DNA from: Prorocentrum cordatum
Taxonomy: Eukaryota > Sar > Dinophyceae > Prorocentrales > Prorocentraceae
NCBI GenBank assembly: GCA_963575745.1
Contig: CAUYUJ010015687.1
Span: forward strand, 123,372-187,371
Direction: 5' to 3'
Length of the DNA stretch: 64,000 bases
Every line of letters starts with the position of its first letter. Within the stretch, counting starts at the first letter, position 1. Positions 12,565 to 40,531 of the stretch are shown here, in pieces. The notes under the pieces were generated by a model, which saw nothing but the letters and a program-made list of their open reading frames with translations, was not told where the DNA came from and did no database searches. Made by a program: the position numbers and the translations under genes.

Positions 12565-12601
12565 CCCAGATGATGCGCTACCGAAAATTTTCGGTAGCGA
12601 G
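12565..12601 (+). repeat. Left terminal inverted repeat (37 bp)
   Basis: Begins CCCAGATGATGCG and continues into a perfect palindrome centred on CCGAAAATTTTCGG. It matches 40,495-40,531 in reverse complement at 36 of 37 positions (C/A difference at position 14). Confidence 0.9.
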
Positions 12602-12830
12602 TTTGCATGATGGGGAGCGACCGAAAATCAAAACGAGTGGTCCAATCCCGGTATTGCAAGACGAAGTGCGCGTGATGCCGATACTGGGATTCAGATTCGG
12701 GATGTCGGTATTTCGCGACCGATTCTTCGGCATGTTCGCTCCCGAAAACCGACGACGCGAGCGTCCTCCAATCCCGGTATTTCACGACCGATTCTTGCGC
12801 CCCTCGATCGTGTGTAAATCGCGCTTCGAA
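12602..12830. repeat. Left subterminal region with CGACCGAAA/CGACCGATTC motifs
   Basis: Contains CGACCGAAAA at about 12,618 and CGACCGATTCTT at about 12,716 and 12,786, motifs also dense near the right end (40,318-40,480). Subterminal repeats of this sort usually bind the transposase. Confidence 0.6.
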
Positions 12831-12842
12831 CACGCATGCGCG

Positions 12843-12876
12843 TCAAACGTTTGCTTGCCAATCGCTGCAAACGTTT
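12843..12876. repeat. Two CAAACGTTTGC copies
   Basis: Two spaced copies of CAAACGTTTGC just inside the left subterminal region, mirroring the larger array near the right end (40,196-40,296). Confidence 0.6.
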
Positions 12877-13660
12877 GCTGCGTACGTGTGCTTGTAGGTG
12901 TAAACGACTAACCCAGGAACTGAACCATTAACCAAACTACACTAGATTCCGAAACTACTTACATAAAGTACCCACTGCACTCAGCTAAGCTACTGACTAC
13001 TTACTAAACTATTACTAGCAGCACTGCGCATGCAGATTCTAAACTATTAACCTACGGCTGCGACTTCAATTCGGCCGCGGCTTCAATGCACAACCCGCCT
13101 TACTAACTAGCCACCACCACCCCCACCATCACAACCATCGCCATGATCATCGGCATCGGCAGACACACCAGCGTCACCATCATCTGCGTCAACATCGGTA
13201 TCATCGTGGGCGCCATCGTAAGATCAGTACTGCCACCATCACCACCTGAGCCATCGCCAACACGATCACTACCACACTCACACCAGGCACAATAATGTCG
13301 TTGTAGTGGTGCACGTGTAAAGTTCAGTGATGACCGTGTGCATTCTAGTTCGCTGTGTTGGGCCTCCGACGTGCAACTTCTTGGGAGTTTTCAGGACGCC
13401 TCTTAGAGCACCCTAGGGGCCATCTCGAAGGATGATTGGCTGCCCCATCCATCTCCTCCGCCTCGTCCACCCACCCTCCTCCATGACTGGGCAGCATGGT
13501 TGTGCTTGGGCATATTGTCTAAGTTGTGCCAATTTTTTGGGGGGGTGGCGGTGGTCTGTGTTGTCGTGATCTTTGATGGGTGCCGCATGTTGTGTAGCAT
13601 GGTTGCAAGCACTGTTTGGGGCAGCGCGATGAGATTACACGTATGGCATATGGGGCATGC
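12877..13660. other. Non-coding, degenerate (CAT)n/(ATC)n
   Basis: About 13,105-13,290 is a degenerate ACC/ATC trinucleotide stretch. No gene is supported in the rest of this interval. Confidence 0.6.
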
Positions 13661-13669
13661 ATAGGCGCC

Positions 13670-13870
13670 GCTGGGGCCGTATGGGGCCACTGCGGACTGC
13701 GCCGTCCGCAACCATGCGGACGGCGCCGCTGGGGCCGTAGGTGGAGCTCCCTTTGGGGTCACGAACCGTGTGAGGGGTGTGTCAAAGTAGGGCGGCGCCG
13801 CCGTGCGGACGGCGCCACTGGTGCCTTTGGTGGGGCTCCCTATGGGGCCACGGCACGTGTGAAAGGGTGT
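13670..13870. repeat. GC-rich repeat around GCGGACGGCGC, two copies
   Basis: Two diverged copies of a unit reading GCGGACGGCGC...GGTGG.GCTCCCT.TGGGG.CACG..ACGTGTG. Further copies lie at 14,620-14,825. Confidence 0.75.
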
Positions 13871-13914
13871 GCCAAAATGGCCGTCGATGATGGTGACGAT
13901 AACGGCGATAATGG

Positions 13915-13921
13915 CGATGAC

Positions 13922-13960
<39 letters not shown>

Positions 13961-14040
13961 GGTGATGGCGACGGCCATGATGATGTTGATGATGCTGATG
14001 ATGACGGCGGTGACGATGACGATGGTGAGTGATGGTGGTG
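13915..14040. repeat. (GAT)n microsatellite
   Basis: Fourteen or so GAT units, then an imperfect GATGAC tail. It yields Met- or Asp-only frames that are not genes. The stretch 14,050-14,600 contains only short ATC tracts and no supported gene. Confidence 0.9.
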
Positions 14041-14619
14041 GGTCGGTGGGGAATGCTGACGATTTTGATTGGTGGTGATCTTCATCATTGTAGCGCTTCG
14101 CTATGCAAGTATCGTGCTCACCAGTATCAGGTTCACAATCGTATTCGTCAGCGTATCATCATCAACATCATCATCAGCAGCAACATCATCATATAAATCG
14201 CCTTTGCAGCATGCACGATTTCGATTATCATTGCCACATTCGTTACTGCACGTCACAGCCATCATTTGAAATTCCATGTTACCCACCATCATGGCCCATA
14301 ACGTCAACCATCAGTCACTGGCATCATCAACATCATCCTCCTATACAGTGTGCTCCTCCTCTGGCTGATCATCCTCATCCACGTGGTGCTCGCCCTCCTG
14401 CTGAGAATCCTACATCCTCCTTTTCTCCCTCCTCTACCATATCTGATTTCCGTTCTACCATTCCTCGTAATATTGATTATGAGCAGCCCTTTATCCAGTT
14501 CAAGCTTCGGTTTGTAAGGACCCGAGGAAGTCTCCAGCGGGATCCCCGAGTCCGAGGGGCCCAACGCGGTCCCGAGAGGGCCCAAACAGGGCATCAAATG
14601 TGCGAAGGGGTGCGCCAAC

Positions 14620-14825
14620 GTGGGGCGGCGCCGTCATGCGGACGGCGCTACTGGGACCTTGGGTGGCGCTCCCTATAGGGCCACGAAACGTGAGTGGTGT
14701 GCTACGAAACGTGAGTGGCGCTCGCCGTCATGCGGACGGCGCTACTGGGACCTTGGGTGGCGCTCCCTATAGGGCCACGAAACGTGAGTGGTGTGCTACG
14801 AAACGTGAGTGGCGCTCCCTATAGG
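14620..14825. repeat. Tandem copies of the GCGGACGGCGC repeat
   Basis: Two near-identical copies of about 95 bp, containing CTACTGGGACCTTGGGTGGC and two ACGAAACGTGAGTGG motifs each. They lie directly upstream of the proline-rich gene and end about 100 bp before its start codon. Confidence 0.85.
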
Positions 14826-14927
14826 TGCCACGAAAGCGCAGCCGTCGCGCCAATCCTGCTGCCCTCCTCCTCACCCTTGTTTTTGGGCTGCAAGCTCGCG
14901 GCGGTAGCCACGCGCAGCGCGGCCGCG

Positions 14928-15794
14928 ATGGAGCAGCAGCCTCTCGTGGAGGAGCAGCCCAGGCGCGATGGAGCGGCGCGCCCCGCGGCGCCGTCGCCAC
15001 CTGCAGGTCCGCCCCCAGCCCACTTGCTGGCGGACCGTGTGCCCGAACCGCCAGCGGCGCGCCCCACCGTGCCGTCGCCACCAGCAGGTCCGCCCCCAAG
15101 CCACCTGCTGGCGGACAGTGCGGCCGAACCGCCAGCGGCGTGCCCCGCAGGGCCGTCGCCGCCTGCAGGTCCGCCCCCAGCCCACCTGCTGGCGAGGCGT
15201 GATGCCGAACCGCCAGCGGGGCCGTCGCCGCCTGCAGGTCCGCCCCCAGCCCACCTGCTGGCGTTGCATGATGCCGAACCGCCAGCGGCGCGCCCCACAA
15301 CGCCGTCGCCGCCTGCAGGTCCGCCCCCAGAACACTTGCTGGCGGACAGTGCGGCTGGACAGCCAGCGGCGCGCCCCGCCGTGCCGTCGCCACCTCCGCC
15401 CCCAGCCCGCTTGCGCTTGCTGGGGGACGACGCGTTCGTGGCGTCCGACGTCTTCGATGCAGAGACGTTGCAGGCGGCCGTCGACGCGGCGTGGCGCTTC
15501 TGGGCCCGCGCCCGCACCCAGTGGGAGAATGCCGTGTCGGTCCTCGCGGCCGCCGTGGCGGCGCGCGACGCAGCGGAGGCGCGGGCCCGTGCTCAGGCCC
15601 AGGCGCCCGTGGATGGGCGGGCGCATTACCACTTGCGCGCGCGCGCCGATCATCAGCCCAGGACGCGTTCGCAGGCGCGCCCTGGGCTGAAGATCGGCGC
15701 GCCCGCGCGGGCGATTCTGCGCCCACCCCGGCGGGCCGAGGCTGACCAGCAGTTCTGCAGCCGCAGCCGCAGCCCTGCAGGTCGAGATCGCTGA
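14928..15794 (+). CDS. Proline-rich tandem-repeat protein (288 aa)
   Basis: Continuous frame from ATG 14,928 (MEQQPLVEEQPRRDGAA) to TGA at 15,792-15,794. Residues about 22-170 are five and a half copies of a 27-residue unit PSPPAGPPPAHLLAD..AEPPAAR. The DNA period is 81 bp (starts at 14,991, 15,072, 15,153, 15,222, 15,303 and 15,384), with one copy shortened in frame by 12 bp, which suggests selection for the reading frame. The last part is an alpha-helical, Ala/Arg-rich region (DAETLQAAVDAAWRFWARAR) ending in an Arg-Ser-rich tail. No family was recognised. A structural or scaffold role is a guess; no signal peptide is visible. The antisense frames are also open because of the GC-rich repeats, so the strand call rests on the repeat composition and the in-frame deletion. 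Confidence 0.6.
   Translation: MEQQPLVEEQPRRDGAARPAAPSPPAGPPPAHLLADRVPEPPAARPTVPSPPAGPPPSHLLADSAAEPPAACPAGPSPPAGPPPAHLLARRDAEPPAGPSPPAGPPPAHLLALHDAEPPAARPTTPSPPAGPPPEHLLADSAAGQPAARPAVPSPPPPPARLRLLGDDAFVASDVFDAETLQAAVDAAWRFWARARTQWENAVSVLAAAVAARDAAEARARAQAQAPVDGRAHYHLRARADHQPRTRSQARPGLKIGAPARAILRPPRRAEADQQFCSRSRSPAGRDR
15643..15700. repeat. Inverted repeat, 20-bp arms
   Basis: The arms 15,643-15,662 (GCGCCGATCATCAGCCCAGG) and 15,681-15,700 are reverse complements with one mismatch, loop 18 bp, inside the 3' part of the proline-rich reading frame. Nothing recognised from 15,795 to 16,010. Confidence 0.8.
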
Positions 15795-16011
15795 GACGCC
15801 CGTGCCCGAGGCCCCGCATGGGGTAAATGGGGGAGGCGGAGGAGGTCCCCCCCCCTCTCCCCCCTCTTTCCTTCCCCCCTCCGTGCTCCGCCCTCCTGTC
15901 TTGCAGCGCCCTTGCGGGCCCCATCGGGGCTATCTGGGCGCCTCCGCGGGGCGTCGGCGCTCGGGGGCAATGGTGTCGCGAGGGGCCCCCAGAGGGCCCC
16001 GACCTCCGCCG

Positions 16012-16303
16012 TAATCATCACCATCATCCGCATCAACGTCCGCATTCTCAGCATCGCCCCAACAATCATCATCACCATCATCACCACCATCATCAGCACC
16101 ATCATTATCGTCGTCATCGTGGCCGTCACCTCAACCGTTCGCACTGATGATGATGATGCTGCTGATGATGAGAAGGATGATGATGATGATGATGATGATG
16201 AGGAGGAGGAGGATGATGAGGATGATGAGGATGATGATGGTGATGATGATGATGGCGATGATGACGATGAGGATGATGATGGTGATGGCGATGAAGATGG
16301 AGG
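16012..16303. repeat. Inverted microsatellite pair (ATC)n then (GAT)n
   Basis: About 110 bp of ATC units, a 20-bp spacer, then about 155 bp of GAT units on the same strand, so the two halves are complementary and could fold back. The interval 16,304-16,560 has no supported gene. Confidence 0.85.
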
Positions 16304-16567
16304 GGTGAGGGGAGGAGTGGAAACAGGGAGGAGGGGGAGAAGGAATAATTTAGGAGTGAGTGAGCACGACAAGTATGTTCCCAGCTGCTCTTATTATCTT
16401 ACTCGCGCTCCCCCCCCCGCTACTCTTGCACCCAGTGGTGCGTCCACTCCTGCTCCTTGCGATACCCCAACCTCCATTACCCCACTTCATTCTAAACTCC
16501 GTTTCCAGTGCGCATTATTATCTTCTCCCACTCCCACTCTCAATACTGGGAGTTCCGTTCCCACTAT

Positions 16568-16660
16568 CGCCAGAAGGAGTGGGGGCCAGAATCAGAAGTA
16601 TGGTCACCCCTGATCAGGGTTGAGCATGCTTCTGATTCTGACTCCCACTCTTTCTGGTGA
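16568..16660. repeat. Foldback sequence upstream of an exon
   Basis: Arms 16,568-16,602 and 16,625-16,660 are roughly 85 percent complementary by eye (CCAGAATCAGAAG pairs with CTTCTGATTCTG). The loop contains the palindrome CCCTGATCAGGG. It lies 50 bp before the start codon at 16,712 and may be a small foldback/MITE-like insertion or a leader hairpin. Confidence 0.7.
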
Positions 16661-16711
16661 GAGCGCGCGCACACGCAGCGCATTTGGCTGAGTTCCAGCA
16701 TTTCTGGCACC

Positions 16712-18801
16712 ATGAGTGCCCCACCTGTCCGTCGCCCTGTTCCGGCCGTCAATGCGGCCGACCTCTCCAAGGCTTTCGTGAGCTACGTGGAGGAAGTTGG
16801 CTCGAAGAAATCGTTCGTTTTAGGGCACTACGAGTTTTTGAGGCGGGACTGCGCGGTGCATGCGCGGTCCTTGCACCAGATGGCCGAGCTGGTGGCTGGA
16901 ACGCAGAAATGCGGGGCGGAGGGGAAGAGGTGAAGGGAAACGACAATGCGTTGGAGGATGGAATCTGGGAAAGACGAGGGATGGCGATGATGCGCACGAG
17001 GATTTATAGGAGAAGGAATGAGAGGATGAGGAGGAGGAGGAGGAGGAGGAGGAGGAGGAGGAGGGAATACAGGATGGTGGCGATGAGGAGGAGGGCACCT
17101 AGGATAACGACGAAGTGGGTGATAGCAAGGAGAAGGTGAGGATCGACAGGAAGGAGCAGGAAGAATTGGAGCTGCAGGTGGAGGTCTTGCTCAAGAACGT
17201 TCCCGAGGTCGACGCCACGTTCTCCGTGCTCCGCACAGCCTGCCACGCTGCGATCGTGGCGTGCCTCGGGTGTAGAAAACGACTTCGGGTTAGCGCGCGG
17301 GGGCGGTGGTGTCAGAGGGGGACTGGACTCGGCGATGAAGGGATGGAGGAGGAAGCTCGGGGGTGGGAATTGAGAGGGTGGGAGGTGAGAGGGGATGGGA
17401 GGAGGGGGGCAGGAAGATGGCCATAGTAAAAAGGGAAATGCGGAGAGTCAGGGTTGCGAGGAGGATCAGAGCAAGTGAGACGATAATGATAATGAGGAGG
17501 AGGAGGATAATGATGATGCGGATGATGCTGCTGAAGATGATCATGCTGTGTTTGATGATGATGAGGATGATGTTGATAAAGGTTATGGTGGCGGTGATGG
17601 TGATTGCGGTGATGCTGATGGTGATGATGATGATGCTGCTGATGATGATGGTGACGATTAGGATGATGGCGAAGACGATGACGATACTGATGAAACGAAT
17701 GATCAGTGTGATGATGGTGGTGATGATGATTATGATGATTCTGCTGATGATGGTGATAATGATCGTGCTTCTCCCTCTCCTGCTTTCTCTGGTACCCCCA
17801 TCCAAGGTACCCCAAGTGCACCTCGGAGAAGTCCACCGCCTCGGCGGTGGACAAGGCCGCCTCCCTCGCCGACAAGATCGGCGTCACCCTCAAACATCTC
17901 CGTCGACTACGGGATTGTCAGACGCGGCTCCGCCAGGAAGCCGCGAGAGGGGGGGGAGGATTTCGCAGCAGGGGTATTTGGATGAGGAAGTACCCTCATC
18001 AAAATCCTCTTCCTCCTCCTCCTCCTCCTCTGCCCTCTCTTCCTACTTCTCCCCCCCTCCTCCTTCTCCTCCTCCTTCTCATCCTTCTCCTCCCCCTTCT
18101 ACTACGGCTGCATGTCCTCCCTCAGTAGTCCGTGTGTTTCCCCTCCCTGCTCATCGAATCCCTGTTGCGGCTACCGCGCGCTCAGATCCCAAGTGTTACT
18201 GTTCTTGATTCTAACCGTGCTTGGAAATCCCCCTAACTTTTGCGCCGATGACTCGGAATTGTTGCTGCCCGCCCATGTCGGTTCACCCTCATTCTAACTC
18301 TGCAATCGCCGCCGCCCGCGGTCCCTCTCCGACGGCGCCCCCCGCCGAGTAGCCTCCTGCTGGCACCCGACATCGAGGCCAAACCGACCCTTCGCAAACC
18401 ATCCCCTTCCATGACGTCATCCTCCCCTTTCGACCTCCCCATCGGGCCGCGCGCATGCATCTCGGGCGTCGCGGAAAGGGATGTCATGCTAGGGGTCGGT
18501 TAGGCCGCCCCTAATCTACCCACGCGCCCGAGAGGCCCTGGCGACGTGCAATGAGAAGGAGGTGAGCTCGATCAACTATTTTTTGCACCTCATGGGCCGC
18601 CCGCCTACTGTAGCCCCTTCCCCGAGTGCAGCACCGTCCCCGTTGCCATCCCCGAGGGCGCCGTCGTCGAGAGCGTCGTCGGTAGGGGCCGCTGCCCGAC
18701 GGTCTCGGTTTGATCCGGTAGCTGGGGTTTCGATCCTTGTCTCTCCTACCCTGATGCTGATGCTCATGATGATGATGGGAAGTGTGATGATGCTGATGAT
18801 G

Positions 18802-18833
<32 letters not shown>

Positions 18834-20170
18834 GGTGATAATGATGATGCTGATGCTGGTGATGATGGTGGTGGTGATGACCATGAGCATGCACATGATG
18901 ATGATGTTGATGATTGCGATGATGATGAGTCTGGTGAGTATGATTGTGTTTATGCTGGTGATGGTGATGATGTCGATGATGATGCTGATGCTGATGATGC
19001 TGGTGATGATGATGGTGATGATGATGAACATGATGCTGATGAGGATGATGATGTGGATGAGGATGAGGATGATGGCCACGCATCCTCACCTCGAGGTGCC
19101 GATCGCGGCCCTCCAGACGGAGGTCGACGCCGATCTCGACGGCTCGGGCCCAGACGGCTCGGAGCACCCCGACTGCTCGGTCGACGGCTCCGTGTGCGAC
19201 GAGGTCCACGACGAGGACCGCTTTGCGTCTTTATCCAACGGGTGAGGGGGAACGAGGAAGAGAGACGAGGACTCAGGCTGGATGGAGAGAGGGGGAGTAG
19301 GGAAGGGAAAGTACGGGGGCAGGGAGGGCAGGAAGAGGACCAGACGACACGCGGAGGGTCAGAAAGATGAGGAGGGATCAGAATGATGACGGTGGTGGTG
19401 ATGATGATGATAATGATGATGATGAGGAGGAGGAGGAGGAGGAGCTGGAGGAGAATGAGGAGGGTGGTGGTAGTAATGATGATGCTGGTGGTGGGGGTGG
19501 GGGTGGAGGTGGTGTTGATGATGATGGTGGTGTTGCGGGTGATGGGGGAGACGAGAGTGATGACGATGATGATGATGATGCTTTTGAGTATGATTATGAT
19601 GCTGATGATACTGACGAGGATTATGCATGTGATTGTGATGATGATGATGAGGAGGATGATGATGAGGAGGATGGTACTGCTGATGCTGATGGTGATGATG
19701 ATGATGATGCTGCTGAAGATGATAAAGCTGGTAATGATCATGTTGGTGGTGATGCTGCTGACGCTGCTGATGGGTGTAATGATGAGGATGAGGATAAGGA
19801 GTATGACGAGGACGAGGACGAGGACGATGATAGTGGCGATGATGCTGATGACGATGTTGATTATGATGATGTGATGCTGATGATGATTGCAAGGGTAATG
19901 ACGATGATGACGATGATGCTGGTAGTGTTGGCAAGGATGATGAGTATGATGACGACGATGAGGATGGTCAGTGTGTTGATGGTGAGTATGATGATGGTGG
20001 TTTTGCTGAAAATGATGGCTCTGCTTCTCGGTGGCGACGATGATGATGCTGGAGACCGACGGGGGGGGGGGTATTGCGCCCCCAACCGAAACGGCCCGAG
20101 GACTCGAGCGACGAGTACAACGCGAAGCTCGAGGAGCTGGGCGTGCCGAGGGACGACCTCCAGGACTGTC
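16712..20170 (+). CDS. Multi-exon dinoflagellate-type protein, unknown function
   Basis: Exon 1 is 16,712-16,929 from ATG (MSAPPVRRPVPAVN), donor AG|GTGAAG. Exon 2 is 17,150-17,269 (acceptor GACAG|G; LELQVEVLLKNVPEVDATFS), donor GG|GTGTAG. Exon 3 starts at 17,807 (acceptor CCAAG|G; YPKCTSEKSTASAVDKAASL) and ends near 17,945. The phases of these three exons agree, which supports the model. Less certain later exons are about 18,535-18,735 (ALATCNEKEVSSINYFLHLM), 19,080-19,245 (acidic, LQTEVDADLDGSGPDG) and 20,078-20,170 (PQPKRPEDSSDEYNAKLEEL). The introns are (GAT)n microsatellites. No catalytic motif was seen; helical, charged sequences suggest a soluble protein. The open stretch 20,400-20,610 might be a terminal Pro-rich exon. 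Later exons could belong to a separate gene. Confidence 0.55.
17480..17770. repeat. (GAT)n microsatellite in an intron
   Basis: Imperfect GAT tract between exons 2 and 3 of the plus-strand gene starting at 16,712. Confidence 0.9.
18750..19078. repeat. (GAT)n microsatellite in an apparent intron
   Basis: Imperfect GAT/GCTGAT tract, about 330 bp, on the coding strand. Confidence 0.9.
19385..20050. repeat. Long (GAT)n microsatellite
   Basis: About 660 bp of diverged GAT units, the longest GAT tract in the window. The nearly all-Asp, all-Met and all-His frames through it are artefacts. Confidence 0.9.
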
Positions 20171-20221
20171 GCGGCCACGGGGGGTGGGGGGTGGGGGTGC
20201 TACGTCGCCCTCCTCCCATCC

Positions 20222-20375
20222 TCCCCTCCATCGCCCTCCTCCCCCTCCTCCTCCTCCTCCTAATCCTCCTCCTCCTCCTCCTCCTCCTCTTCGCCCCCCC
20301 CCTCCTCCTCCACCTCCTCGTCCTCCTCCTCGTCCTCCTCCTCCTCCTCCTCCTCCTCATCATCAGCATCATCAT
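20222..20375. repeat. (CTC)n microsatellite
   Basis: CTC tract on the plus strand, changing to ATC/CAT units at 20,360-20,398. The following 20,400-20,770 is open in one Pro-rich frame but otherwise unrecognised. Confidence 0.9.
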
Positions 20376-20774
20376 CACCATCACCATCAGCAGCATCATG
20401 TCTCGCCGCCCGCTGTCAACCCACCTCCTATTTCGCCAGGCCCCGATCCACCCTGCCGACGCCAACCCCTCCAAACTACCCCATGGGGCCTAAGCCGCAA
20501 CAGCCCCCCCCCCCCCCAGCGGACATCGGGGGGCAAACGAGCCTCACCCCGACCCCGCTCGAAACACCTTGCGGCCCCTAAACCCCTACGCTCCCAGACA
20601 CGGAAATGAGGGAAGGGAATGGGGCAAAGTGCGGGAGGAATACGCGGTGGCTGGCGAGGACGGGCAAAGGAGAGCGGATGGGAGTGGATGCGAGAACATA
20701 CAGAAATCGGATGGTAACGCATAGGACAATAGAAGGTGAATGAAGGATGCAACGGAAAATGTTGGTTGTATTCC

Positions 20775-20925
20775 GTCTGTAGCGTCGACTAGCGTCGAGT
20801 AGCGTCTGGGAGTCGATGAGATAGCGCCGACGTTGTGTCGGCTAGCCTCGAATAGCGTCGAGTTAGCGTCGAGTTCGCGTCGACTAGCGTTGACTAGCGC
20901 TGACTGGCGTCGATTCGCAAGAGCC
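20775..20925. repeat. TAGCGTCGA minisatellite
   Basis: A dozen or so variants of TAGCGTCGA(G/C) in irregular tandem order, 140-290 bp upstream of the start codon at 21,064. The position fits a 5' regulatory or promoter region, but no known element was recognised. Confidence 0.65.
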
Positions 20926-21063
20926 GACAATATGGCATGAGAGGCTCCCATGAGTTGCCGCCGAAAGATGCGCATTTTCCGTGGATCACTTTTGGCTCGC
21001 AGTGCCAGGCAGAGCCCTGGCCAGGCGCCAGGCGGCGCCCTCTGGGGCCCTTGAGGCCCCAGC

Positions 21064-23231
21064 ATGTCCGCCGATGGCCAGCAGGGCGACGAGCCTGGGT
21101 TGGACGACGTTGCCCAGCAGATTTTCTTGGCCGACCGCTGGGCGCAGCTGAAGGCGAGCAAGGACAAGCTCCTCCTCTTCATCCTCCAGGCGTGCGCCCC
21201 GTTCCTGGCCGCGCTCCAGCCCGATCGGCGCGACCTTGTGTGCCTGGAGGTGATTGGGTCCACGTCTATCTCCGAGGAGTGCAGCTTGTTCGGCCCGAGC
21301 ATACCCTACAACGACCTCTACGGCCGCCAGCGCGACGTCTTGGGGGACGAGGGCTTCGCGCACCTCCTCGAGCTGAGCCTGCGCGTCCAGCAGGGGGGCA
21401 CCGTGTTCTTTACGCCCTTGACTGCGACATGGCTCCCCTCGGACGCAGCCGCGCAGTCGAGGACCAAAGAGAACCCAGGGGGGGACATTAGCCAGCAGCT
21501 CATACACGACGCGAACCTCCAGGTCGAGCGGTGCACCATTGTCGGGCTCATTTGTTGGCTTCGGGGGGAGCCTGAGATCTAAATTCAATGCCCACCCAGG
21601 GCGAAATCAACGAGGAGGGGGGGAGAAAGGAGGAACGGAAGATCAGGGGGGGAGGTGGACGTCGACATCAGGATCACTGAGGATATGTTCCGATTTTCGG
21701 CTTCAGGTGCATCAAGCGTGGGTGCACCCGAAGCCGTCGATCCTGTGGGTGCACAAGCCAGTGCATTGCTTGCGGACCTTGGTTGCCAACGTCACGAGTC
21801 TCACGTGCCTCGGTGGTTTTGGAGGCGATACACTCGGGGAGATTCACATTATTTCTGATGATGCGGCGTTCAGGGGTCTGGAGAAGGCCGCTGGGGGGAA
21901 CAGAAATACTCGGTGGCACACCCAATACCCCCCCCCCCCCCCCGTCGAACCCTACATGGGTGCCCGCGTCCCCGTTGCGCCACCCCCATTGCAAACTTCC
22001 GCTGTGATTTCTGTTGCCCTCCGAGGCAAAACCATCAAGCTACGAGTTCCAAGCTGCGCCCGCGATCAGAGGCGCATTCATGCCAGAGTTTCCGATTCAG
22101 TTCGTTCAGAAGTGCGCCGAGATCATTCGCGGCCTCTACATGGCAGATCCAGCCAACCAGGCCCCGAAGGAGTCTCCGATGCCAGCGTCCAGTCGCCCTG
22201 TTGAGAACAGCGGATCGTGCGAGACCATTTCTTCGGAGGAGCGGCACCGCAATCGATGGCCTGTACCACCCTCCCTCTTCATTTTTATCGGTGCCTTCAT
22301 CCTCCTTCTCGCCCTCGCACTCGGACTCTTATTCCTCCTGCCCTTGGCGCACCTCCGCCTGTGATAGCCCCTCCCCTTCTCGCCTTCAAAGCTCCCGCCC
22401 CATTCTCGTACTCGCACTCCTCATCGTCGACACCCCCCTCGGCCTATCTTTGTCGAACGCTAGGACGCGTCGGCTACCCCCAAGAGACGGCGCCTGAGGG
22501 AGAAGACGAGCCCGCCCGAGCAGGTCAGCCAGAAGCCAGCCGACGAGGCGCAGTCCGATCTTCTGCCGAGCTGGGCGCCAGCACCATGCAGCACGGCAGA
22601 CGACTGGGCCATGGAGTACGCTCGGCGTCAGGCGAAGCGCGAGAGTTCGACGCGCCCCCCGCGCAGCAGCAGTTCTTCCTGGACGTCGAGGCCCGACGTG
22701 CCCTGGGCGGAGGTGTGCCCATCGCCCGCCGAGCGGATCATGGCGCGCCAGCTTGGCTTCAAAGTTGGCACCCAGCCAGCCGAGGCCGCCAGCAGTCCAG
22801 AACCCCAGCCTCTCGAGCTCGGGGCCTGGGTCAAGGGCCAGACTCCGCGTGGCGACATGGGCTCGGACACGCAGCCCCCCGTGGAGCAGCCAGAGCCACC
22901 AAGTCCCGAGGCTGGACAGGAGAGTAGTGGCCAGAATGACACAGAGCAGGAGACGAAGCTCGCGCAGCACCTCGAGGAGCCGTCGGCCGACACCCCGAAG
23001 CCGCTGGAGGACCGGTCGAAGGGCCCAGAACACATGGCTGCGCCATCGTGCACGCAGCAGCCAAACCCGCCGAAGAACCACGAGCCGACGATCCCGAAGA
23101 TGCCAGAGCAGCAGCGCGAGCAAACATCGATGTTGACGCAGGGTGGAGCAACGGCCGAGACACCCGAGCTCAGCGATCATGAGATGATTAACTTGGCGTT
23201 CTGGCTGAAATTTGATCGCTTCAGGGACTGA
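21064..23231 (+). CDS. Dinoflagellate-restricted gene family member (VCLEVIGST...GGFGGDT)
   Basis: Exon 1 starts at ATG 21,064 and contains VCLEVIGSTSISEECSLFG, DLYGRQRDVLGDEGFAHLLE and GGTVFFTPLTATWL. Exon 2 begins at 21,707 after CTTCAG| and contains ILWVHKPVHC and LTCLGGFGGDTLGEIHIISD. Exon 3 is about 22,020-22,240 (FMPEFPIQFVQKCAEIIRGL). The last exon starts near 22,470 with a basic PKRRRLREKTSPP stretch and runs as a Pro/Glu-rich tail to TGA 23,229-23,231. The motif series matches a large protein family I remember from dinoflagellate gene sets (unverified). The layout in exon 1 recalls the start of a Rossmann-type methyltransferase fold, but I do not claim that activity. The donor of exon 1 was not resolved (likely near 21,560). 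Confidence 0.6.
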
Positions 23232-26917: not shown

Positions 26918-27276
26918 ATGCCTCCAAAGGGCTCGAAACGGGGTGCTCCAGTGATCAAGGTTCGCTTTGGGTTTAGTTGTGACCAGTTGGATTGTGCGGC
27001 AGGCGTTGCGAGTTGTCCCTTTAATGTTGCAAACTGGCGCAGCGGTTTGTGCGCCGCGTCAATTCGCAACTTGAAAAGGGGCTGCTCGCAGCGGCTGCCG
27101 CGCACATGATTTTGCAAAGCGTGCATCCTCCTTGCCAGGCCAACTTGAAGAAGACCGCCAAGACGCAAGCGCAGCCGAAGAAGCGGGGCGTCGCGCAGTC
27201 GAAGCAGAAGGGCAAGAGCAAGGGCAAGGGCGAGCTCACCTTGGCCGTGTACGGTGACAAGGGGACGTCTGGATAG
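26918..27276 (+). CDS. Small Lys-rich protein, two exons (59 aa), or 5' end of the next gene
   Basis: Exon 1 is 26,918-26,959 (MPPKGSKRGAPVIK), donor AAG|GTTCGC. Exon 2 starts at 27,139 after CTTGCCAG| and runs to TAG 27,274-27,276. Both junctions are phase 0. Exon 2 is very basic (KKTAKTQAQPKKRGVAQSKQ), suggesting nucleic-acid binding or nuclear location. The product could stand alone as a 59-residue basic protein. Alternatively, a donor near GTGTAC or GGTGAC within exon 2 may link it to the exons from 27,697 onward, but I could not find a phase-compatible junction. Confidence 0.5.
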
Positions 27277-27696
27277 TATTGAAGCGGCTCGTAGAAGCAC
27301 ATTGAATAGAGAGCGGAGGGTGCACGCGGTTTTGAACAGTGTTATTGTTCCAGAGTTTCGTTCGAAGTAGATGAGTTGGGTCACCCAAGCCTCGTCACGA
27401 TAACAGCCGTTCCATGCGATGCCCCGAAACCTCTCCGTCCAATAGTGCAGGTCGTCCCCCCCCCCCCTTCCTCGACGAATCTAATTTGCTGGACTGGGGG
27501 CCCGAACGGGCATCGGCGGCCCCGATGCCCTGCGCGCTAAGTCGTGCGCCACTCCATGCAATGATTATTTATGGTAACTCGTTAGCCCACCCCCCCTGTG
27601 CCCTGTCCACCTCTCCCGCCTCGTCGTCGCCTCATCGCGGTCATCCCGTCGTGCGCTTACATGCGAGATAACGTGAAACAAGCACCCATCGAGCAG

Positions 27697-30301: not shown

Positions 30302-30342
<41 letters not shown>

Positions 30343-32789: not shown

Positions 32790-32806
32790 CAGCGACGCTC
32801 ATTGAA

Positions 32807-32908
32807 GCTCACTGGTTCCAGCGAGCGTCCGATGAGCGGTCATCGAAGCTCACTGTTTCCAGTGAGCGTTAGATGATCGTTCATCGAGGCTCATTGTTTC
32901 CAGCGAGC
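32807..32908 (+). repeat. Three hairpins in a 41-bp ladder
   Basis: GCTCACTG-TTTC-CAGTGAGC-type hairpins at 32,807-32,826, 32,848-32,867 and 32,889-32,908, exactly 41 bp apart. Base changes leave the stems pairable. A fourth degenerate copy lies at about 32,951-32,980. They begin 18 bp after the stop codon at 32,789 and could be 3' end structures. Confidence 0.75.
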
Positions 32909-32989
32909 ATTCGATGAGCACGCGCAGTACCCTACTGAAAGCGATGCCAGGCTCACTGGTGCTCACTGTGTGCAGTGAGGTTCAATGAC

Positions 32990-33560
32990 GGTCGCTGCGG
33001 CAGAGCTCGTGGCAGCAAATAGCGATGCCAGGAGTCTAGTTCCAGGCCCAGGATAGGACCAACTTACCTGGTTCCAGGATACGACCAAATTTTACCAGGT
33101 TCCAGAATACGTTCGGGTCATGTGCTCAGTTCGAATATGTAATTTGTCACAAAAGACGCGTAAACGAGACAGTGAACAATAAGTAAATTAAGTTAAGTAG
33201 GAAAAGGGTCACTATCGCAAAAACACATATGCGTTAAAGGGGGATATGACACGGGATATGGGGTTACACTTTGGGCGCGCAGGCGCGAGGCGCGTGGTGC
33301 ATTGAGTGGCGCCTCTGACACATTTGATTGTCAGGGTGGCCAGCTCGGGGGAAACACCCCTAAACAGCTTGTCGCCTCCTGAGTCCTGGGACCGTGCGGC
33401 GCCCTTGTGGGCCAGTCGGGGTGTTGGCTTCGGGGTCTTCTGGTACTGTGGCATCGCAGTGGCAGTTAGGTTTAGAGTGAGGGTGCAATAATGTGGAGAG
33501 AGCTCACAAGTAATCAAGTATTCTTTCCAAATAATCCGTTCAGGGAATCCTTCCAGGTAG
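32990..33560. other. Intergenic, short CAGGTTCCAG repeats, no gene recognised
   Basis: About 33,030-33,115 has three diverged copies of ACCTGGTTCCAGGATACGACC. No coding signal could be supported in the rest. Confidence 0.5.
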
Positions 33561-33582
33561 TCCCGCATCTCTCCATATTGTC

Positions 33583-33632
33583 CTCCTCCTCCTCCTCCCC
33601 CTCCTCCTCCTCCTCCTCCTCCTCCTTCCTGG
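33583..33632. repeat. (CTC)n microsatellite
   Basis: CTC tract between a possible upstream exon ending FRESFQ|GTAGTC (33,556) and the main reading frame at 33,806. Confidence 0.85.
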
Positions 33633-33805
33633 AAACAACGGTCAGGATCACGGGGCGCGATGCTACTGAGGAAACGACGGCTAAGGCAACGACGCAGGCA
33701 CATAGGCACCCGTCTTCATACGTAGCCATTTCCATAGGTTCAACTGTGCCAGCAGTCACGACCTACCCCTCAGGAGGTTACCGACACCAGTGCAGTGTAC
33801 CAGCC

Positions 33806-34444
33806 ATGGCAACATCACCGATCAGCTGCGGCGAGATCGCACTGATCACGACCAACAGCTTCGCCGGCGAAATGGAAACGCAGGCCACCAAGATCACGGA
33901 GCTGGTCAAGGCGATGCACGCCCAGAAGATGAAAGTCACCAAGGCCATCGCTCACACCAAGCACGTGACGCTCAGCCCTGGCAGCTCAGAGGAGCAGCGA
34001 ACGGCCAACTTGCTGACCCTCCAGTATCACGACTCGAGGATCGACCTGGTCACGATGGAGCTGCAGAAGATCAAGGGCCTCCTGCTCGACAACTCCAACG
34101 TGAAGATGGACAGCGCGAAGGAGAATACCGCAACAAAGTGCGATTCGCTCAACAAGATTGTGCAGCTCACCCAGCAGTACGACAAGCAGCTCACGAAGCA
34201 GAACATCGATCACGGTGGCCAGCTGCCGTGGGATGCAAATGCCGAAGCCATGTGGGTTCAGTACGGCTGGAAGCCAAAAGACGAATCTAAGTGGATCTCG
34301 CCGACGGTCTGGAACGCGTTCGACGTCAATGATCCCGCTACGTGGGTGCCATTCGGCTGGACCGACTACAGCGCCACCTCCGACACTGATGATCCGATTG
34401 AGGTGTTTGAAGTCATCGAGCGTGCCGATGTTGAGTCCAAGTGA
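33806..34444 (+). CDS. Coiled-coil protein with WxxYGW/WxPFGW repeats (212 aa), unknown
   Basis: Frame from ATG 33,806 (MATSPISCGEIALITTNSFA) to TGA 34,442-34,444. The frame is also open upstream to 33,491 across a CTC tract. Residues about 15-135 are amphipathic and Gln/Lys/Glu-rich (TKITELVKAMHAQKMKVTKA), likely a coiled coil. The C-terminal part has two similar short motifs, AMWVQYGWKPKDES and ATWVPFGWTDYSAT, then an acidic tail. No family was recognised. The stop overlaps a donor-like sequence AA|GTGAGT, but no phase-compatible next exon was found. Lies 0.6 kb before the transposase gene on the same strand. Confidence 0.6.
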   Translation: MATSPISCGEIALITTNSFAGEMETQATKITELVKAMHAQKMKVTKAIAHTKHVTLSPGSSEEQRTANLLTLQYHDSRIDLVTMELQKIKGLLLDNSNVKMDSAKENTATKCDSLNKIVQLTQQYDKQLTKQNIDHGGQLPWDANAEAMWVQYGWKPKDESKWISPTVWNAFDVNDPATWVPFGWTDYSATSDTDDPIEVFEVIERADVESK

Positions 34445-34559
34445 GTTCCTGCCACTCCCGCTGGCACGCAGCCAGCCAGCCAGTGCAGCCAGCCAGCCAA
34501 TTCTTTCACTGCCCAGCCAGTGCGGCCAGCCCGCCAGTTCTTCCCGACTTTCTCGGCCT

Positions 34560-35055: not shown

Positions 35056-37809
35056 ATGCGGCGGTGCACGAAGAGACGCCTCGATCCCGATCCGCCCCCT
35101 GACTCCGAGGAGTCTGAAACTAGCGCCCGCGAGGATGTCGATGGGCGGGGCCGCCCTGAATTTTCAGTGTTCGCTTCTATGCTGTTGAGGGAATGGTCGT
35201 GGGGCAAACTCTACGGCGCAGAAGTTCAGAGATGTGCCCTCGCGGCGTATAAGGACGGCCTGGCATCTTACAGCGAGGTGAGGGAGCTAGCATCAATGGG
35301 ATCCTGGGGGAGGTGTCCTTCAAACGTGCATCAACAATTAACTAAGAAATACCTACGCGGGAACCCGTTTCCAGAACCTGAAGAGTTTGACGTTCATTGC
35401 CGCCGCCCGAAAACATTACAGATAATTGAATCACCGTGCTGCATTTTACTTCCGCACGAGATGTTCTCTGCTCTGTTTCGATCGCATCCTGACGAGTTTA
35501 GGGAGATGATGGGCCTTGATTCAATGGAAGAGTTTTGGGGTGGCGCTTCAAGGGACGACCCTAGGATGAAGAATCACCCCGTTTGGCGGGTTCCAAACTA
35601 CTCTCGGTGTTGCATCCCGCTTCGGATACACGGAGATGGTGCAGAAATGCAGAACAACGATTCCCTCATGACTGTCTCGTTCACAAGCTTGTTGGCTCTA
35701 GGGTCGACTCGGGCATTAAGTTTCCTCATCGCGGGCTGGCCCTACTCAACTACCTTGAAGCAGCAGCATGATGGTTTCGACACATGGCTCGAAATATGGC
35801 GCGTCATAGCATGGTCTCTGAATTCTTTGGCAAGCGGGAAATTCCCGACCAGAGATGCAGGGGCTCCGCCATTCCGCATGCTCGAAGGGGTATTGAGACT
35901 TTTTGACGAAAGTCCGAATGGAGGGGGGATTGCGGGGCACTGGAAAGAGCGGCGAATCAAGCGGGGGCGAGGGGGATGCAATGTGGGGAACCACATGCGG
36001 GAACATCATATCAGAGCATGGGGCAGCGAACAGCGGCTGCAGCGGACTGGCTCGGCCGACCGTTTCCAGAGGGTTCTCGCCATCGGGATCAGGCTGGTCA
36101 GTATTTGTGCAGCCGAGACCTCCCATATCGCGCGTTCCTGTACGCGATTTTAGGCTGTGGTCGCAGTTCGAAACGCTCCGGTTTACCAATGCAGCTTTGT
36201 TAAAGCCAGTTAAAACCTAGGGGCAGTGAGTGCGTGTGCGTTCCGGACTGCGACCAACGCCGCCAGGCGACATGGAGTTTTTTAGCCAGCATCTCGGCAG
36301 CCCTCACCCGAATGCGCATGAGATGTGTTTCCTCTGCGAAGCCAACCGCACGACGCTGCCGTGGAACAATTTCGTCAAGGAAATGTGCGTGTAAGACGTT
36401 CGAGGCATTACCGCGCGCGCCCAGTGAGCAACGTCTATATCTAAGCCCACTCACCCCCCTAATCCCCTAGCCCTGACCCCGCGCAGGGATGCCCCACTGA
36501 GCCTGTTCATACTGCCACTCCCCCTGCTTCTGCCCCCCCCATTCCACTCCTCCCCTTCTTTTCTCTTGCCTCGCTTCCTATCCACACTCCTCCCCCTAAT
36601 CCTGTTCCCCCCCGCTCTCCATACCTTCGTTTCCCGCATTGTTGTCGCGCTCCTGCCCCGCCCATTCCGCCCGCCCCGCCCACCGTCTGTTCTGGAACAG
36701 ACCACCTACCACTCCCCCGCCCTTCCACCCTCTGACTCCCCCCACCGTCCCCTACGGAGCATCGATGTCCATGCTATTCTCGCCCTCTCCTTGTGCTCGT
36801 CCCCGCCCTGTCCGCCCCCCTACACATGCATGCCCTCTGGGCCGCGCGGCAACGCCCCAGCCAGGATCGATGCTCCTCAGGACATGCGTTAGCCCAATGT
36901 GTGTTTACACCACTCAGCTCCACACGTAGATCATTACATCGCCTGCGTCGTGTTGGAGGGCTGCATAAGGCAAAAACACGTTGGTGCCAACGCGCGTTTT
37001 GAGGGTCATCGGCAGGACAGCTACCCCAGGCATTGGATGCGCTTCCGACGTCGCGAGCCCTTCCCGTTCACGCATCCCGTCTTTTCAGTTTTTGGAGTTA
37101 CGGTCGACTCCATCAGTTTAGACAGTATGCATTGTGTAGATCTCGGGATCACGAGCCATATGTTAGGTAACGTCTTGAAGGAGATCATATATGAGCAGCT
37201 CCCCCCGCCCGCCACGAAAGCCTGTGAGATAATATGGCGGCGAATTGTCGAATTGTACGATGAACTCAAGATTCCACACAGGATCACGCACTTCGGGCTG
37301 AAATTCTTTATCGCCGACACCAAAAGCCCGCACGCAGACTACCCCGTGATGAAAAAATCCGTTAAAGCTGCAGAACAAAGATGGCTCGCGCCCGTTCTTT
37401 ACAAGCTCTGCCTCGAATATGAGGATGACAGCGATCGCAAGGCGATGCGCTCATTGATGGTAGAGAATTTGTGCAAATACTACGACTACATGGATTCTTC
37501 TGGAATGTACATGAGCAGGGAAACAGCAGATCATCTCAAAACATCAGTTGAGTCAGCATTGATTTGGTATCATTTTCATTCCTCCTACGCAGTTAAAACA
37601 GAGAACAAGAAGACATGGATCATTGTGAACAAACACCACATGTGGTGGCACATCGCTGAGGGCGCATCACACATGAACCCGCGCTGGTTCTGGTGCTACA
37701 TGTGCGAGGATTTTATGCGCCAGATTACAAAGATCGCTTCTACAACGATGATGGGATCCCCGATGCTAGGCCTGTCGCGAAAACTTTGCGAACGGTGGCG
37801 CATAGGAAG
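35056..37809 (+). CDS. DDE transposase, CACTA/KDZ-like dinoflagellate family, apparently intact
   Basis: Catalyses cut-and-paste DNA transposition in the nucleus. Exon 1 starts at ATG 35,056 and runs to about 35,889. It holds CCIPLRIHGDGAEM, with the first likely catalytic Asp at 35,635-35,637, and SFLIAGWPYSTTL. Exon 2, 36,266 to 36,390 (donor GT|GTAAGA), reads GDMEFFSQHLGSPHPNAHEM then CFLCEAN. Exon 3 begins between about 36,970 and 37,030 and ends at 37,809 (AAG|GTATGC). It holds SISLDSMHCVDLGITSHMLG (second Asp, 37,121-37,123) and HHMWWHIAEGASHMNPRWFW, followed by CED (candidate third acidic residue, 37,706-37,708). No stop or frameshift interrupts the exons. It sits 2.7 kb from the right TIR of the 28-kb element and is the obvious candidate to mobilise it. 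It is a different subfamily from the broken copy at 41-1735. The junction of exons 1 and 2 is not phase-resolved, so a small exon may be missing. Confidence 0.7.
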
Positions 37810-38727
37810 GTATGCCGCTGGCTCCGCCGACTGTCCGCTCGCGCCTTGTGGCCCCCTCGTGGCCCGTTGCGGGGGGGGGGGCTTTCAGGGCACCGTTCGA
37901 ATGGTCTGGCGTCGTTGCCCACTCCCCATTCCACTACCTCCCCCCTTGTCTGTCGCGATCTGCTTTCCCATCGTGGCCCGCAAGGACATCATGGCAGTTC
38001 CTGGCGACCTACCAGGCAACCCCAACCTAACACGAAGACCCAAAAATATGGTTGGAGGGGGGGGTACAGGGTCCACATGCGGTTGTTTTTCAATGTGCCC
38101 CGACGCCCACCCCCCTCCCCCAACTGGGTGGCGAACTGTGACCTTCGGGGTGGGGGTTGGGTGGTCTTGGTGGGCGGTGAGTTTCGCACAGGGGCGTTGG
38201 CTATGACCGTGGTTTGGGACGAAACGGGGTCAGAATGGAAACGGAGGAGGAAGAGCTATAGCATGAGAGTAGTGATGAGGAGGACGGGCGCGCGCTTTGC
38301 TTGAGACTGGATGGGGAGGCATGCGAACAGTAGGGGGGCACGGGGAGCATGGGTACGGAGGATGAAGAGAGAAGAATACGAAGGAGGTTATGCCAGTCAA
38401 CAGCCTACGAGATCCTGGCCCTCCTAGCATGAGGGGAAGGCGGATTTCGAGATTGTGCGCCCTGCGCACTAGGTTGCAAGCAACGTGCCATTCGCCTTTG
38501 TCGGCGATGGAGTTCGCCCGTCCTTCGCCCTCCTTTTCCCCGTCCCCGTCATCACCAATCTTATCAGCATTGGCATCGTTCTACATCGCGTGCCTTGTTC
38601 CCTCTTCGCCGACAGGTTCCACGAGTTGCGACGGGATGTCGCATTCAGGCGCACTGTTCGCCCCTGCGCTGTCAGATGCGAGTGGAAAACATGTCAGCGC
38701 AATCATCGCCTTCGCCCGTTGTTATAG
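37810..38727. other. Non-coding, end of transposase gene and spacer
   Basis: GC-rich sequence with long G and C runs (37,871 and 38,061). It may contain the transposase 3' end, but no further exon could be supported. Confidence 0.4.
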
Positions 38728-39101
38728 GTCAAACGTTTGTTTTCGCAATCTGGGGAACCCAACTATACCAACACGATATACAGACAAAACGTTCGACAAA
38801 CGTTTGTCAACCATTTGCCAAACATTTGTCAAGCGTTTGCAAAAACGTGTGCCAAACGGTTGCCAAACATTTGTCAAATGTTTGCCAAACCGTGTGCCAA
38901 ACGTTTGTCAAACATTTGTCAAACGTTTGCAAAAACGCGTGTCAAACGTTTGTCAAACGTTTGTCAAACGTTTGTCAAACGTTTGCAGAATCAGTTGTCA
39001 AACGTTTGTCAAACGTTTGTCAAACGTTTGCAAAAACGTTTGTCACACGCTTGCCAAACGCGTGCCAAACGTTTGCCAAACGTTTGTCAAACGTTTGTTT
39101 G
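38728..39101. repeat. AAACGTTTGTC 11-bp minisatellite
   Basis: About thirty units, dense from 38,782, alternating with 22-bp higher-order variants (AAACGTTTGC, AAACCGTGTGCC). All three frames stay open for part of it, producing repeats such as FVKRLSNVCQT that I treat as an artefact. Confidence 0.9.
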
Positions 39102-39129
39102 GCGAGTTCTCGCCATGCTCGCCGTTGCC

Positions 39130-39430
39130 TTACCATCATCATCATCATCATCATCAGCATCATCATCATCCTCAGCATCATCATCATCATCGTCGTCATC
39201 TTCTTCATCTTCATCAGCATCATCATCAGCAGCATAATCAACCACCATCATCAACCCCGCCACCCTCACCATCCAAACCAGCAGCATCAACGTGATCACC
39301 AACATCATGCTAATCATCGGCACCGTCAACCTCATCATCACCATCATCATCGTCACCATCATCAATATAATCATCATAGTTGGCATCGGCATCACCACCC
39401 CCGTAGTCGCCATCCCCATAATCGCCTTCA
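39130..39430. repeat. (ATC)n microsatellite, left half of an inverted pair
   Basis: ATC tract complementary to the GAT tract at 39,690-40,135. The 250-bp spacer (39,431-39,689) has no recognised gene. Confidence 0.9.
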
Positions 39431-39689
39431 GCATCGGAGGGGGAGAGAGGACACATAGGAGGGGGGCAAGCTCAACGCTGGAACAACCAGGTTTTGCCGA
39501 GTGCGGGCAAGTCAGACCATCTGCTAGACAAACTCCTCGGGAGGTACCCATTCACGACAATGTCTGGGAGAGGATGGGGAGAATGAGGAGAAAGAGGGGA
39601 TGAGCAACGAGGCAGACGAGACGTAGGAGGGCGACGAGGAATTTCCCCCAAGGTGCTCATGATGGTTAGCGCGATTCTGACGACGATGG

Positions 39690-40088
39690 TAGGGGATGGC
39701 GACGACGTTGATGATGGCATCGATGCCGACTACGATGAAGAATGCGAATGATGATAACGATGCAAATGATATTGATGAAACTGGTGATGGTGACACTGAT
39801 GATGATGCTGGGGTGATGAAGGTGATGGTGATGAAGATGATTATGTCCATGATGACGTTGGTGATGATGATACTGATGATGACGATGATGGTTTTGATAA
39901 TGCCGATGATGATGTTAATGATTATGATGGTTGTGGTAATGACGGTGATGGTGATGATGAGTGGTATGATGATGACGGTGTCGACAACGACGACGGCGAC
40001 GACGGAGACGATGATGATGGCGATGATGATGGTATTAATGCTGGTTACCTTGAACATTCTGATGATGATGATGAGATGATGATGATGC

Positions 40089-40124
<36 letters not shown>

Positions 40125-40135
40125 CGAGGATGCTG
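39690..40135. repeat. (GAT)n microsatellite, right half of an inverted pair
   Basis: About 440 bp of diverged GAT units, ending in eleven or more perfect copies at about 40,090-40,125. Confidence 0.9.
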
Positions 40136-40195
40136 TGAACGATGATGCTGGTGATCGTGATGATGGCGGTGGCGCGGATGGCACAACCCGCCCGA

Positions 40196-40296
40196 CAAAC
40201 GTTTGACAAACGTTTGTCCGTGGATAGTGTCATGATTACCTCATGTCTAAGATTGTGGGGAACAAACGTTTGACAAACGTTTGTCAAACGTTTGTC
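40196..40296. repeat. AAACGTTTGTC copies near the right end
   Basis: Two clusters (40,196-40,220 and 40,264-40,296), just inside the right subterminal region of the 28-kb element. Confidence 0.85.
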
Positions 40297-40309
40297 GCGG
40301 CGTGCGTGT

Positions 40310-40494
40310 TGCGTTTCGGTCGCGACCGAAATTTGGCGACCGAAATTTGCATAGGAAACGCGCGTGCGCGCGCGTGAGATTCACCCGCCTGGCGCAGCGA
40401 AATCTCGCGACCGATTCCTATGTGAGGCGAACGTGCGTCTGCGACCGAAAATACCGGCTCTTTCCGGTACGACCGAAATTGCATCGTGTATGTT
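40310..40494. repeat. Right subterminal region with CGACCGAAA motifs
   Basis: At least four CGACCGAAA and one CGACCGATTC, in the same sense as near the left end, plus alternating GCGC and a small CCGGAAAGAGCCGG dyad on the minus strand. Confidence 0.65.
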
Positions 40495-40531
40495 CTCGCT
40501 ACCGAAAATTTTCGGTATCGCATCATCTGGG
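40495..40531 (-). repeat. Right terminal inverted repeat (37 bp)
   Basis: Reverse complement of 12,565-12,601 with one mismatch. It ends CGCATCATCTGGG, directly followed by satellite TCTAGCTCTCAGAGAGC. Confidence 0.9.

Follow-up and report, generated by a model that had tools for sequence, protein, structure and literature searches.

A 28-kb gene-carrying DNA element in Prorocentrum cordatum, probably a transposon of the CMCT clade

Results

We describe here an element of 27,967 bp that occupies positions 12565-40531 of a 64,000-nt stretch of Prorocentrum cordatum DNA (the window, 55% G+C; all positions are window coordinates), and which is with a probability of about 0.9 a complete copy, probably moved recently, of a giant gene-carrying DNA transposon of the CMCT (CACTA/Mirage/Chapaev/Transib) clade. 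The element is bounded by 37-bp inverted repeats (12565-12601 and 40495-40531) that are identical at 36 of 37 positions, and the 13-mer CCCAGATGATGCG is confined to these two termini within the window. It interrupts a 312-bp satellite, with the left flank ending in AAACCCTC and the right flank starting with TCTAGCTC. Joining the flanks without the second TC gives AAACCCTC followed directly by TAGCTCTC, which is identical to one of the four satellite copies compared, the other three differing from it by a few bases at the junction. Over longer distances the joined flank aligns to the satellite at 11960-12564 with 91% identity (605 alignment columns) and to that at 42238-41513 with 87% identity (733 columns). 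A preliminary description of this DNA had proposed both the inverted termini at this spacing and the rejoining of the satellite halves to an uninterrupted unit with a 2-bp TC duplication, and the comparisons of termini and flanks bear out both proposals. The left junction, the one read there, is also carried by contig C3452 with 99.3% identity over 3.0 kb, and by sequence this is probably a duplicate or allelic contig of the same locus.

The termini belong to a genome-wide family. A pattern derived from the ends (CCCAGATGATGCGNTACCGAAAATTTTCGGTA, 32 places, up to three mismatches) has 57 forward and 61 reverse matches, 118 in total, in the whole assembly (4,128,499,153 bases in 21,875 contigs), whereas the reversed pattern used as a control has none in either direction, which excludes chance as the source of the termini. 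Pairs were drawn from 100 listed sites of the 118. Twenty-seven same-contig pairs lie less than 60 kb apart, 25 of them convergent, one in ++ and one in -- orientation; the nearest convergent pairs number 24, including a 41.7-kb pair that encloses another (C16004), and the remaining 23 delimit elements of 18.4-29.0 kb. Two of these are near 18.4 kb, seven are 20.9-21.7 kb, two are near 23.3 kb, one is 23.8 kb (C15632, a complex locus), and eleven are 28.0-29.0 kb. The preliminary description had named a genome search for inverted pairs as a check, and the occurrence of each terminus in a separate short element as a finding that would refute it; the search returned a family of giants, and the 24 pairs contain no convergent pair shorter than 18.4 kb, so that at this stringency small non-autonomous derivatives are not in evidence. 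A transposase match lies inside 19 of the 23 elements, with its low coordinate 1.8-3.7 kb from one end and always reading toward that end. C16004 and C15632 have three termini each, which suggests nested or tandem elements.

Six further 28-kb copies were read, and all are colinear with the window element from end to end. Three of them (C5081, C6138, and C13884) are 99.2% identical to it, and the other three (C14405, C16579, and C19834) are 87.6-88.0% identical to it and 98.9-99.6% identical among themselves; on these identities the copies form two apparently young subfamilies, A (the window element with the first three) and B (the second three). Duplications of 2 bp flank ten of the eleven terminus pairs checked and have no sequence in common: TC (window, C6138, and C8802), GA (C13884 and C14292), TA (C19834 and C3512), AT (C14405), CC (C16579), and TT (C614). 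The flanks of the copies read are mutually unmatched, except that the left flank of C5081 is the right flank of C6138 (495 bp, 100%). These two copies thus share one flank and differ in the other, as could arise by rearrangement, by recombination between copies, or by misassembly. Divergence between the subfamilies is uneven, at about 2-14% over 12565-16065 versus 18-38% over 16565-21065, with only 2-3% difference in the first 500 bp and in most of 14.5-16 kb. Synonymous divergence (dS) between A and B is 0.57-0.75 in gene G0 (Table 1) and 0.08-0.26 in the other genes. The high value in G0, together with the stretches of 2-3% elsewhere, indicates that the subfamilies are mosaics, and their structure looks as if modules had been swapped or converted.

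The enzyme predicted to move these elements is a multi-exon DDE transposase, for which a further exon downstream of 37810 is likely. The window protein has a first aspartate (D1) in HGDG, a second (D2) in GDME, CFLC 19 residues after D2, HMWWH, and then the glutamate in CED. Eleven protein homologues, the best with 25% identity over 96% and one from Durusdinium trenchii, align with D1 in HGDG, D2 mostly in RGDW at the position of the window GDME, the glutamate as (D/C)E(D/S/T), and a DxMHxxxLG-like motif. The C(2)C motif stands 19-20 residues after D2 in all ten homologues that span the region, and H(3)H precedes the glutamate in six of the nine that reach it. The available text of PMC12730594 gives the marks of the CMCT clade as a DDD/E triad, C(2)C, H(3)H, duplications of 2-5 bp, and termini that are mostly 5'-CA..TG-3'. 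The predicted catalytic residues provide such a triad, with D2 assigned by comparison, and the 2-bp duplications fall in the range; the ends read start with CCC and stop with GGG, and so depart from the terminal mark. No Pfam transposase family was matched at E values up to 1 by the two main exons or by the eleven homologues, and in a search of solved structures the transposase profile had three weak, unrelated matches and gene C had none. These features support placement of the transposase in the CMCT clade, and not in CACTA proper, because the termini and duplication length differ and a Pfam transposase match is absent. The preliminary suggestion of a CACTA-related element therefore stands at the level of the clade, on C(2)C, H(3)H, and the 2-bp duplication, and falls for CACTA proper.

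Relatives of the transposase are numerous, with at least 136 matches to exon 3 in the whole genome at 36-100% identity. One relative of 49% identity, C15766, has a right end reading CCCAGATCATACGTTACCGAAAA 1.5 kb past its transposase match; its left end was not found in the stretch read. Outside the element, 753-1283 on the minus strand holds a fragment, either a relic or an exon, of a further transposase of this kind; it is about 32% identical to homologue P0006 over 825-1244 and has an in-frame stop further on.

The other genes (Table 1) were assessed by comparison with the subfamily B copy C16579, using a codon-position test in overlapping 180-bp segments (chi-square p<0.002, uncorrected for the many segments; those within 18805-19194, which lie in trinucleotide repeats, were left out), and by protein similarity. 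Substitutions are skewed to one codon position in C (24925-25104), D (29605-29784), F (34255-34434), G0, and the transposase (37165-37374 and 37615-37794). The ratio of non-synonymous to synonymous substitution rates (dN/dS), for the window against two B copies, is below 0.6 for every gene tested: 0.19-0.28 for the transposase, 0.03-0.36 for pieces of D, 0.11-0.21 for G0, 0.33-0.34 for F, 0.40-0.41 for A, 0.50 for C, and 0.55-0.56 for B. Pieces of the transposase and of A, B, C, D, and F are free of stops in all seven copies (in the window frame, with insertions dropped). The G0 pieces, whose limits are rough, contain insertions or deletions in some copies; a stop is present in the four A copies at 16646-16915 and in the three B copies at 18526-18744. 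That all genes read on the plus strand, as had been described, holds for the six gene regions that are backed by comparison or homology.

Table 1. Features of the element and its insertion site (window coordinates)
Feature	Position	Strand	Remarks
Left target-site duplication TC	12563-12564		Flank comparison with uninterrupted satellite
Left 37-bp terminal inverted repeat	12565-12601	+	Contains perfect palindrome TACCGAAAATTTTCGGTA
Left subterminal zone	12565-12864		3 CGN[TG]ACCG motifs in 300 bp, terminus counted
Two AAACGTTTG sites near left end	12844-12877		CAAACGTTTG-type palindrome
Gene G0, multi-exon, putative core	16645-18744	+	Rough exon limits; codon-position signal 16645-16914, 17065-17334, 17755-17994, 18535-18744; protein similarity of open frames to 21-kb element 16661-16930, 17763-18125, 18493-19242, to 18-kb element 17763-18125
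Gene A exon, putative core in many lineages	21064-21577	+	143 listed genome loci
Open frame B, perhaps 3' part of gene A	22467-23228	+	dN/dS about 0.55; weakest of set
Gene C, last exon, putative core	24688-25173	+	Same strand upstream of many transposases
Internal AAACGTTTG palindrome array	26442-26577		About 11-bp period
Gene D, multi-exon, putative core	26918-29766	+	Pieces 26918-26959, 28089-28316, 28867-29049, 29572-29766; approximate limits
Segment with gene F, apparently captured	32886-34523	+	DNA matches at two loci with no element part found nearby; left limit at or beyond 32886
Gene F, probable cargo	33806-34441	+	212-aa open frame from ATG
DDE transposase	35056-37810	+	Exons about 35056-35877, about 35991-36158, about 36266-36382, 36935-37810; splice points approximate
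Large AAACGTTTG palindrome array	38730-39098
AAACGTTTG sites near right end	40196-40296
Right subterminal zone	40232-40531		5 CGN[TG]ACCG motifs in last 300 bp
Right 37-bp terminal inverted repeat	40495-40531	-	Inverted partner of 12565-12601
Right target-site duplication TC	40532-40533		Flank comparison with uninterrupted satellite

Ends of this kind also delimit two further families, of 18,435 bp (C14292) and 21,376 bp (C8802), which permit a comparison of gene content. C8802 has no match to window DNA by masked blastn at 1e-10, and the matches of C14292, among those listed from an unmasked search, lie in repeat-like stretches. Protein matches place G0, C, D, and the transposase in the same order and on the same strand in both. 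Identities to the two families are 35-51% by exon for the transposase and 32-38% for D, with an additional 24-residue piece at 46%; the C protein is 39% identical in C8802 and 33% in C14292, and G0 39-48% and 48% respectively. A, B, and F have no protein match in either element. The linkage of G0 and D with the transposase rests on these three families, and for C and A genome searches gave at least 154 and at least 150 matches. Gene C lies on the same strand 8.3-14.5 kb upstream of 65 of the 132 listed transposase loci, with a single other arrangement within 20 kb, and from the density of listed C loci the chance of this arrangement is about 0.0003 each. It also lies 2.8-4.9 kb downstream of A, on the same strand, at 76 of 143 listed A loci, and a transposase follows 12.4-30 kb downstream at 44 of the 143, with one other arrangement in each case. 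All three occur in the order A-C-transposase at 34 of the listed A loci, and A thus seems to be core in many lineages although it was not found in C8802 or C14292.

Gene F behaves differently. The first 36 of its 91 genome matches include 22 beside other element parts and 14 that are not (within 35 kb, relative to listed loci), and 12 of these 14 are 78-88% identical, similar to the 84-87% between the A and B copies of F. Two of the outside loci match element DNA at 32886-34523 with 83-87% identity and match each other at 89% over nearly all of the 2.6 kb read. The shared unit outside is therefore longer than the part in the element, with a right limit near 34.5 kb. The simplest explanation is that it was captured into the 28-kb lineage. 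The F protein contains two WxxYGW/WxxFGW repeats and has no Pfam match.

The subterminal regions contain two classes of short repeats. The motif CGN[TG]ACCG clusters in the 300-bp end zones of all nine elements read, with 3+5 copies at the ends and two in the interior of the window element, 3+5 versus 1-4 across the seven 28-kb copies, 12+14 versus one in C8802, and 13+9 versus one in C14292; such concentration at the ends is as expected of a binding site for the transposase or a helper. The palindrome AAACGTTTG forms four clusters inside the element and is absent from the 36 kb of the window outside it, and its arrays are present in all seven 28-kb copies and absent from the 18- and 21-kb elements.

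Discussion

The observations suggest a model in which the CMCT-clade transposase encoded near the right end would bind the palindromic 37-bp termini and adjacent short repeats, excise the whole 28-kb element, and reinsert it elsewhere with a 2-bp stagger and duplication and no fixed target sequence. Movement would be by cut-and-paste rather than copy-out, and the element may be active in the present day. G0, A, C, and D may act as helpers in the movement or persistence of an element of this size, a role suggested by their conservation.

Several observations weigh against this interpretation. Numerous listed loci (49 of 132 for the transposase, 55 of 143 for A, and 32 of 145 for C) have none of A, C, the transposase, or a listed terminus within 30 kb, and 79 of the 145 C loci have no listed transposase 3-20 kb downstream; some of these neighbourless loci may be relics, host genes, or elements of another type. 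Constraint is weaker on B and C. Within the transposase, the second histidine of H(3)H is missing in three of the nine homologues that reach the region, and the residue before the catalytic glutamate is cysteine in the window protein and aspartate in the homologues. Stops occur in 18 of the 136 listed transposase matches, including the 28-kb copies C182, C15299, and C19834, the last of which has lost 1 bp in exon 1 and gained 1 bp in exon 3, and C14405 has a 94-bp deletion in exon 3 as well as a 1-bp insertion in gene A. Finally, the C5081 pair is the one of eleven that lacks a duplication (GA/AG), and this copy may be rearranged on its right side.

The distribution of the genes bears on what should be regarded as cargo. 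G0, A, C, and D appear to be a conserved core that accompanies transposases of diverged sequence and is mostly not cargo, whereas F is probably cargo captured from elsewhere in the genome, although it may have moved in the opposite direction or be part of another mobile element. The giant gene-carrying DNA transposon of the preliminary description is thus upheld by the genome-wide termini, copies, and transposases, and its term cargo applies to gene F only. An improbable alternative, if the best placed of those considered, is that the ends of an ordinary short CMCT element caught a host gene cluster once, with the 28-kb family descending from that event. Gene F resembles such a passenger, but the 24 terminus pairs include no short relative with these ends, C, D, and G0 are also present in two other families, and A and C stand beside transposases down to about 36-50% identity.

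The CMCT-clade transposon that we favor was compared with known systems. It resembles CACTA/EnSpm elements in a DDE transposase with C(2)C and H(3)H encoded in multiple exons, in extra genes, and in subterminal zones of short direct and inverted repeats, which the dinoflagellate elements have; in the red alga Chondrus crispus, CACTA/EnSpm families are enlarged to 16-20 kb with 4-5 open reading frames, according to the accessible portion of PMC6431247. However, the termini here are CCCAGAT...ATCTGGG and not CACTA, the duplication is 2 bp and not 3 bp, only sizes of 18-29 kb are seen, at least five genes are conserved, and there is no Pfam transposase match; CACTA elements have CAC termini and 3-bp duplications in the parts of PMC12730594 and PMC8978399, respectively, that were available. 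Plavaka elements of fungi share the CMCT motifs, duplications of 2 bp (or 2-3 bp), and extra genes in some families, but as far as the same portion of PMC12730594 describes them their termini are TGT or CATCA, which are not seen here, and no Plavaka Pfam match was obtained; the termini are unlike those of CACTA, PlavakaA, and PlavakaB. Among KDZ elements, Zisupton differs in having an 8-bp duplication rather than 2 bp. Fungal Starships, in the accounts accessible to us, are likewise giant and carry cargo, but they use a tyrosine recombinase, whereas the elements here have a DDE transposase, inverted termini, and genes that are mostly conserved rather than variable. We found no report of a giant DDE element in dinoflagellates in the literature titles and abstract openings searched, a coverage that mostly excludes subscription papers, or in the available parts of PMC11453091 and PMC11071213.

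Polintons (Mavericks), which are 15-25 kb and up to 40 kb long in the portion of PMC6431247 available, are similar in size range and in a conserved multi-gene core as far as the sources at hand describe them. An integrated Polinton-like virus or other viral genome with a DDE enzyme would account for a size of 18-29 kb, several conserved genes, and a protist host, and such viruses are common in protists according to the parts of PMC7805220 and PMC12220804 at hand. We nevertheless consider this explanation very improbable, and slightly more so than the passenger cluster. Six-frame Pfam scans (E up to 0.5 on the plus strand and 0.01 on the minus strand) gave five weak matches, all below curated cut-offs, and none to polymerase B, capsid, packaging or other ATPase, protease, or tyrosine recombinase, although introns or remote folds could hide such domains; the transposase is moreover of a different, CMCT type, and the duplication is 2 bp. 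The least credible alternative is an ordinary gene cluster that was duplicated as a segment or repeated in the assembly, with inverted repeats at its borders by chance: the repetition of the locus around the left junction in C3452 and the flank common to C5081 and C6138 mean that some copies are duplicate contigs or duplications, but the remaining flanks are mutually unmatched, 2-bp duplications flank ten of eleven pairs, the empty satellite site is reconstituted, and the same ends and gene order recur in elements with almost no DNA in common.

DNA transposons are usually small and encode one or two genes. An apparently young family whose units measure 18-29 kb and hold a multi-gene core under selection means that the limit on cargo size has been overcome, perhaps via helper genes; transposition efficacy is said to fall above about 6 kb of cargo in the part of PMC6431247 consulted. 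The finding extends beyond a single element to a lineage of giants with a conserved gene core, which lies within the CMCT DDE transposons and possibly has the rank of a superfamily. We lean, by a modest degree, toward a broader proposal, in which a CMCT lineage of superfamily rank in dinoflagellates consists of giants only and requires at least five conserved core genes (G0, A, C, D, and the transposase) to mobilize units of 18-29 kb. Subfamilies would swap modules, genes such as F would be acquired and carried along, and the lineage would constitute a DDE-based counterpart of Starships that shapes dinoflagellate genome size and gene dispersal. The family observed here offers dinoflagellates a concrete gene-moving vehicle, in genomes that are very large and contain many unexplained genes, and it allows several 'dark' genes of this genome to be interpreted as transposon genes.

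Relatives of gene A are present in public sequence data, as the European Nucleotide Archive (ENA) contains a 99% match on a 695-bp contig and two more at 60-65%. A 200-aa EukProt entry labelled Pyramimonas sp. (P0012) is 93-97% identical to 29115-29766, partly in what we read as intron, and may be another copy in a possibly contaminated data set, or a transfer. No spliced-leader relics were seen in the window with the two patterns tried. Genes A, C, and F are present a second time on contig C3452, at a distance of about 48 kb. Elsewhere in the window, a 1329-aa open frame at 50552-54538 on the plus strand matches Pfam RVT_1 (E 2e-8), with a weak endonuclease match (E 0.09), and represents an element of the long interspersed nuclear element (LINE) type. 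A satellite of 173-178 bp forms several arrays within 45205-63350, and a 176-bp array is also present at 10496-11316.

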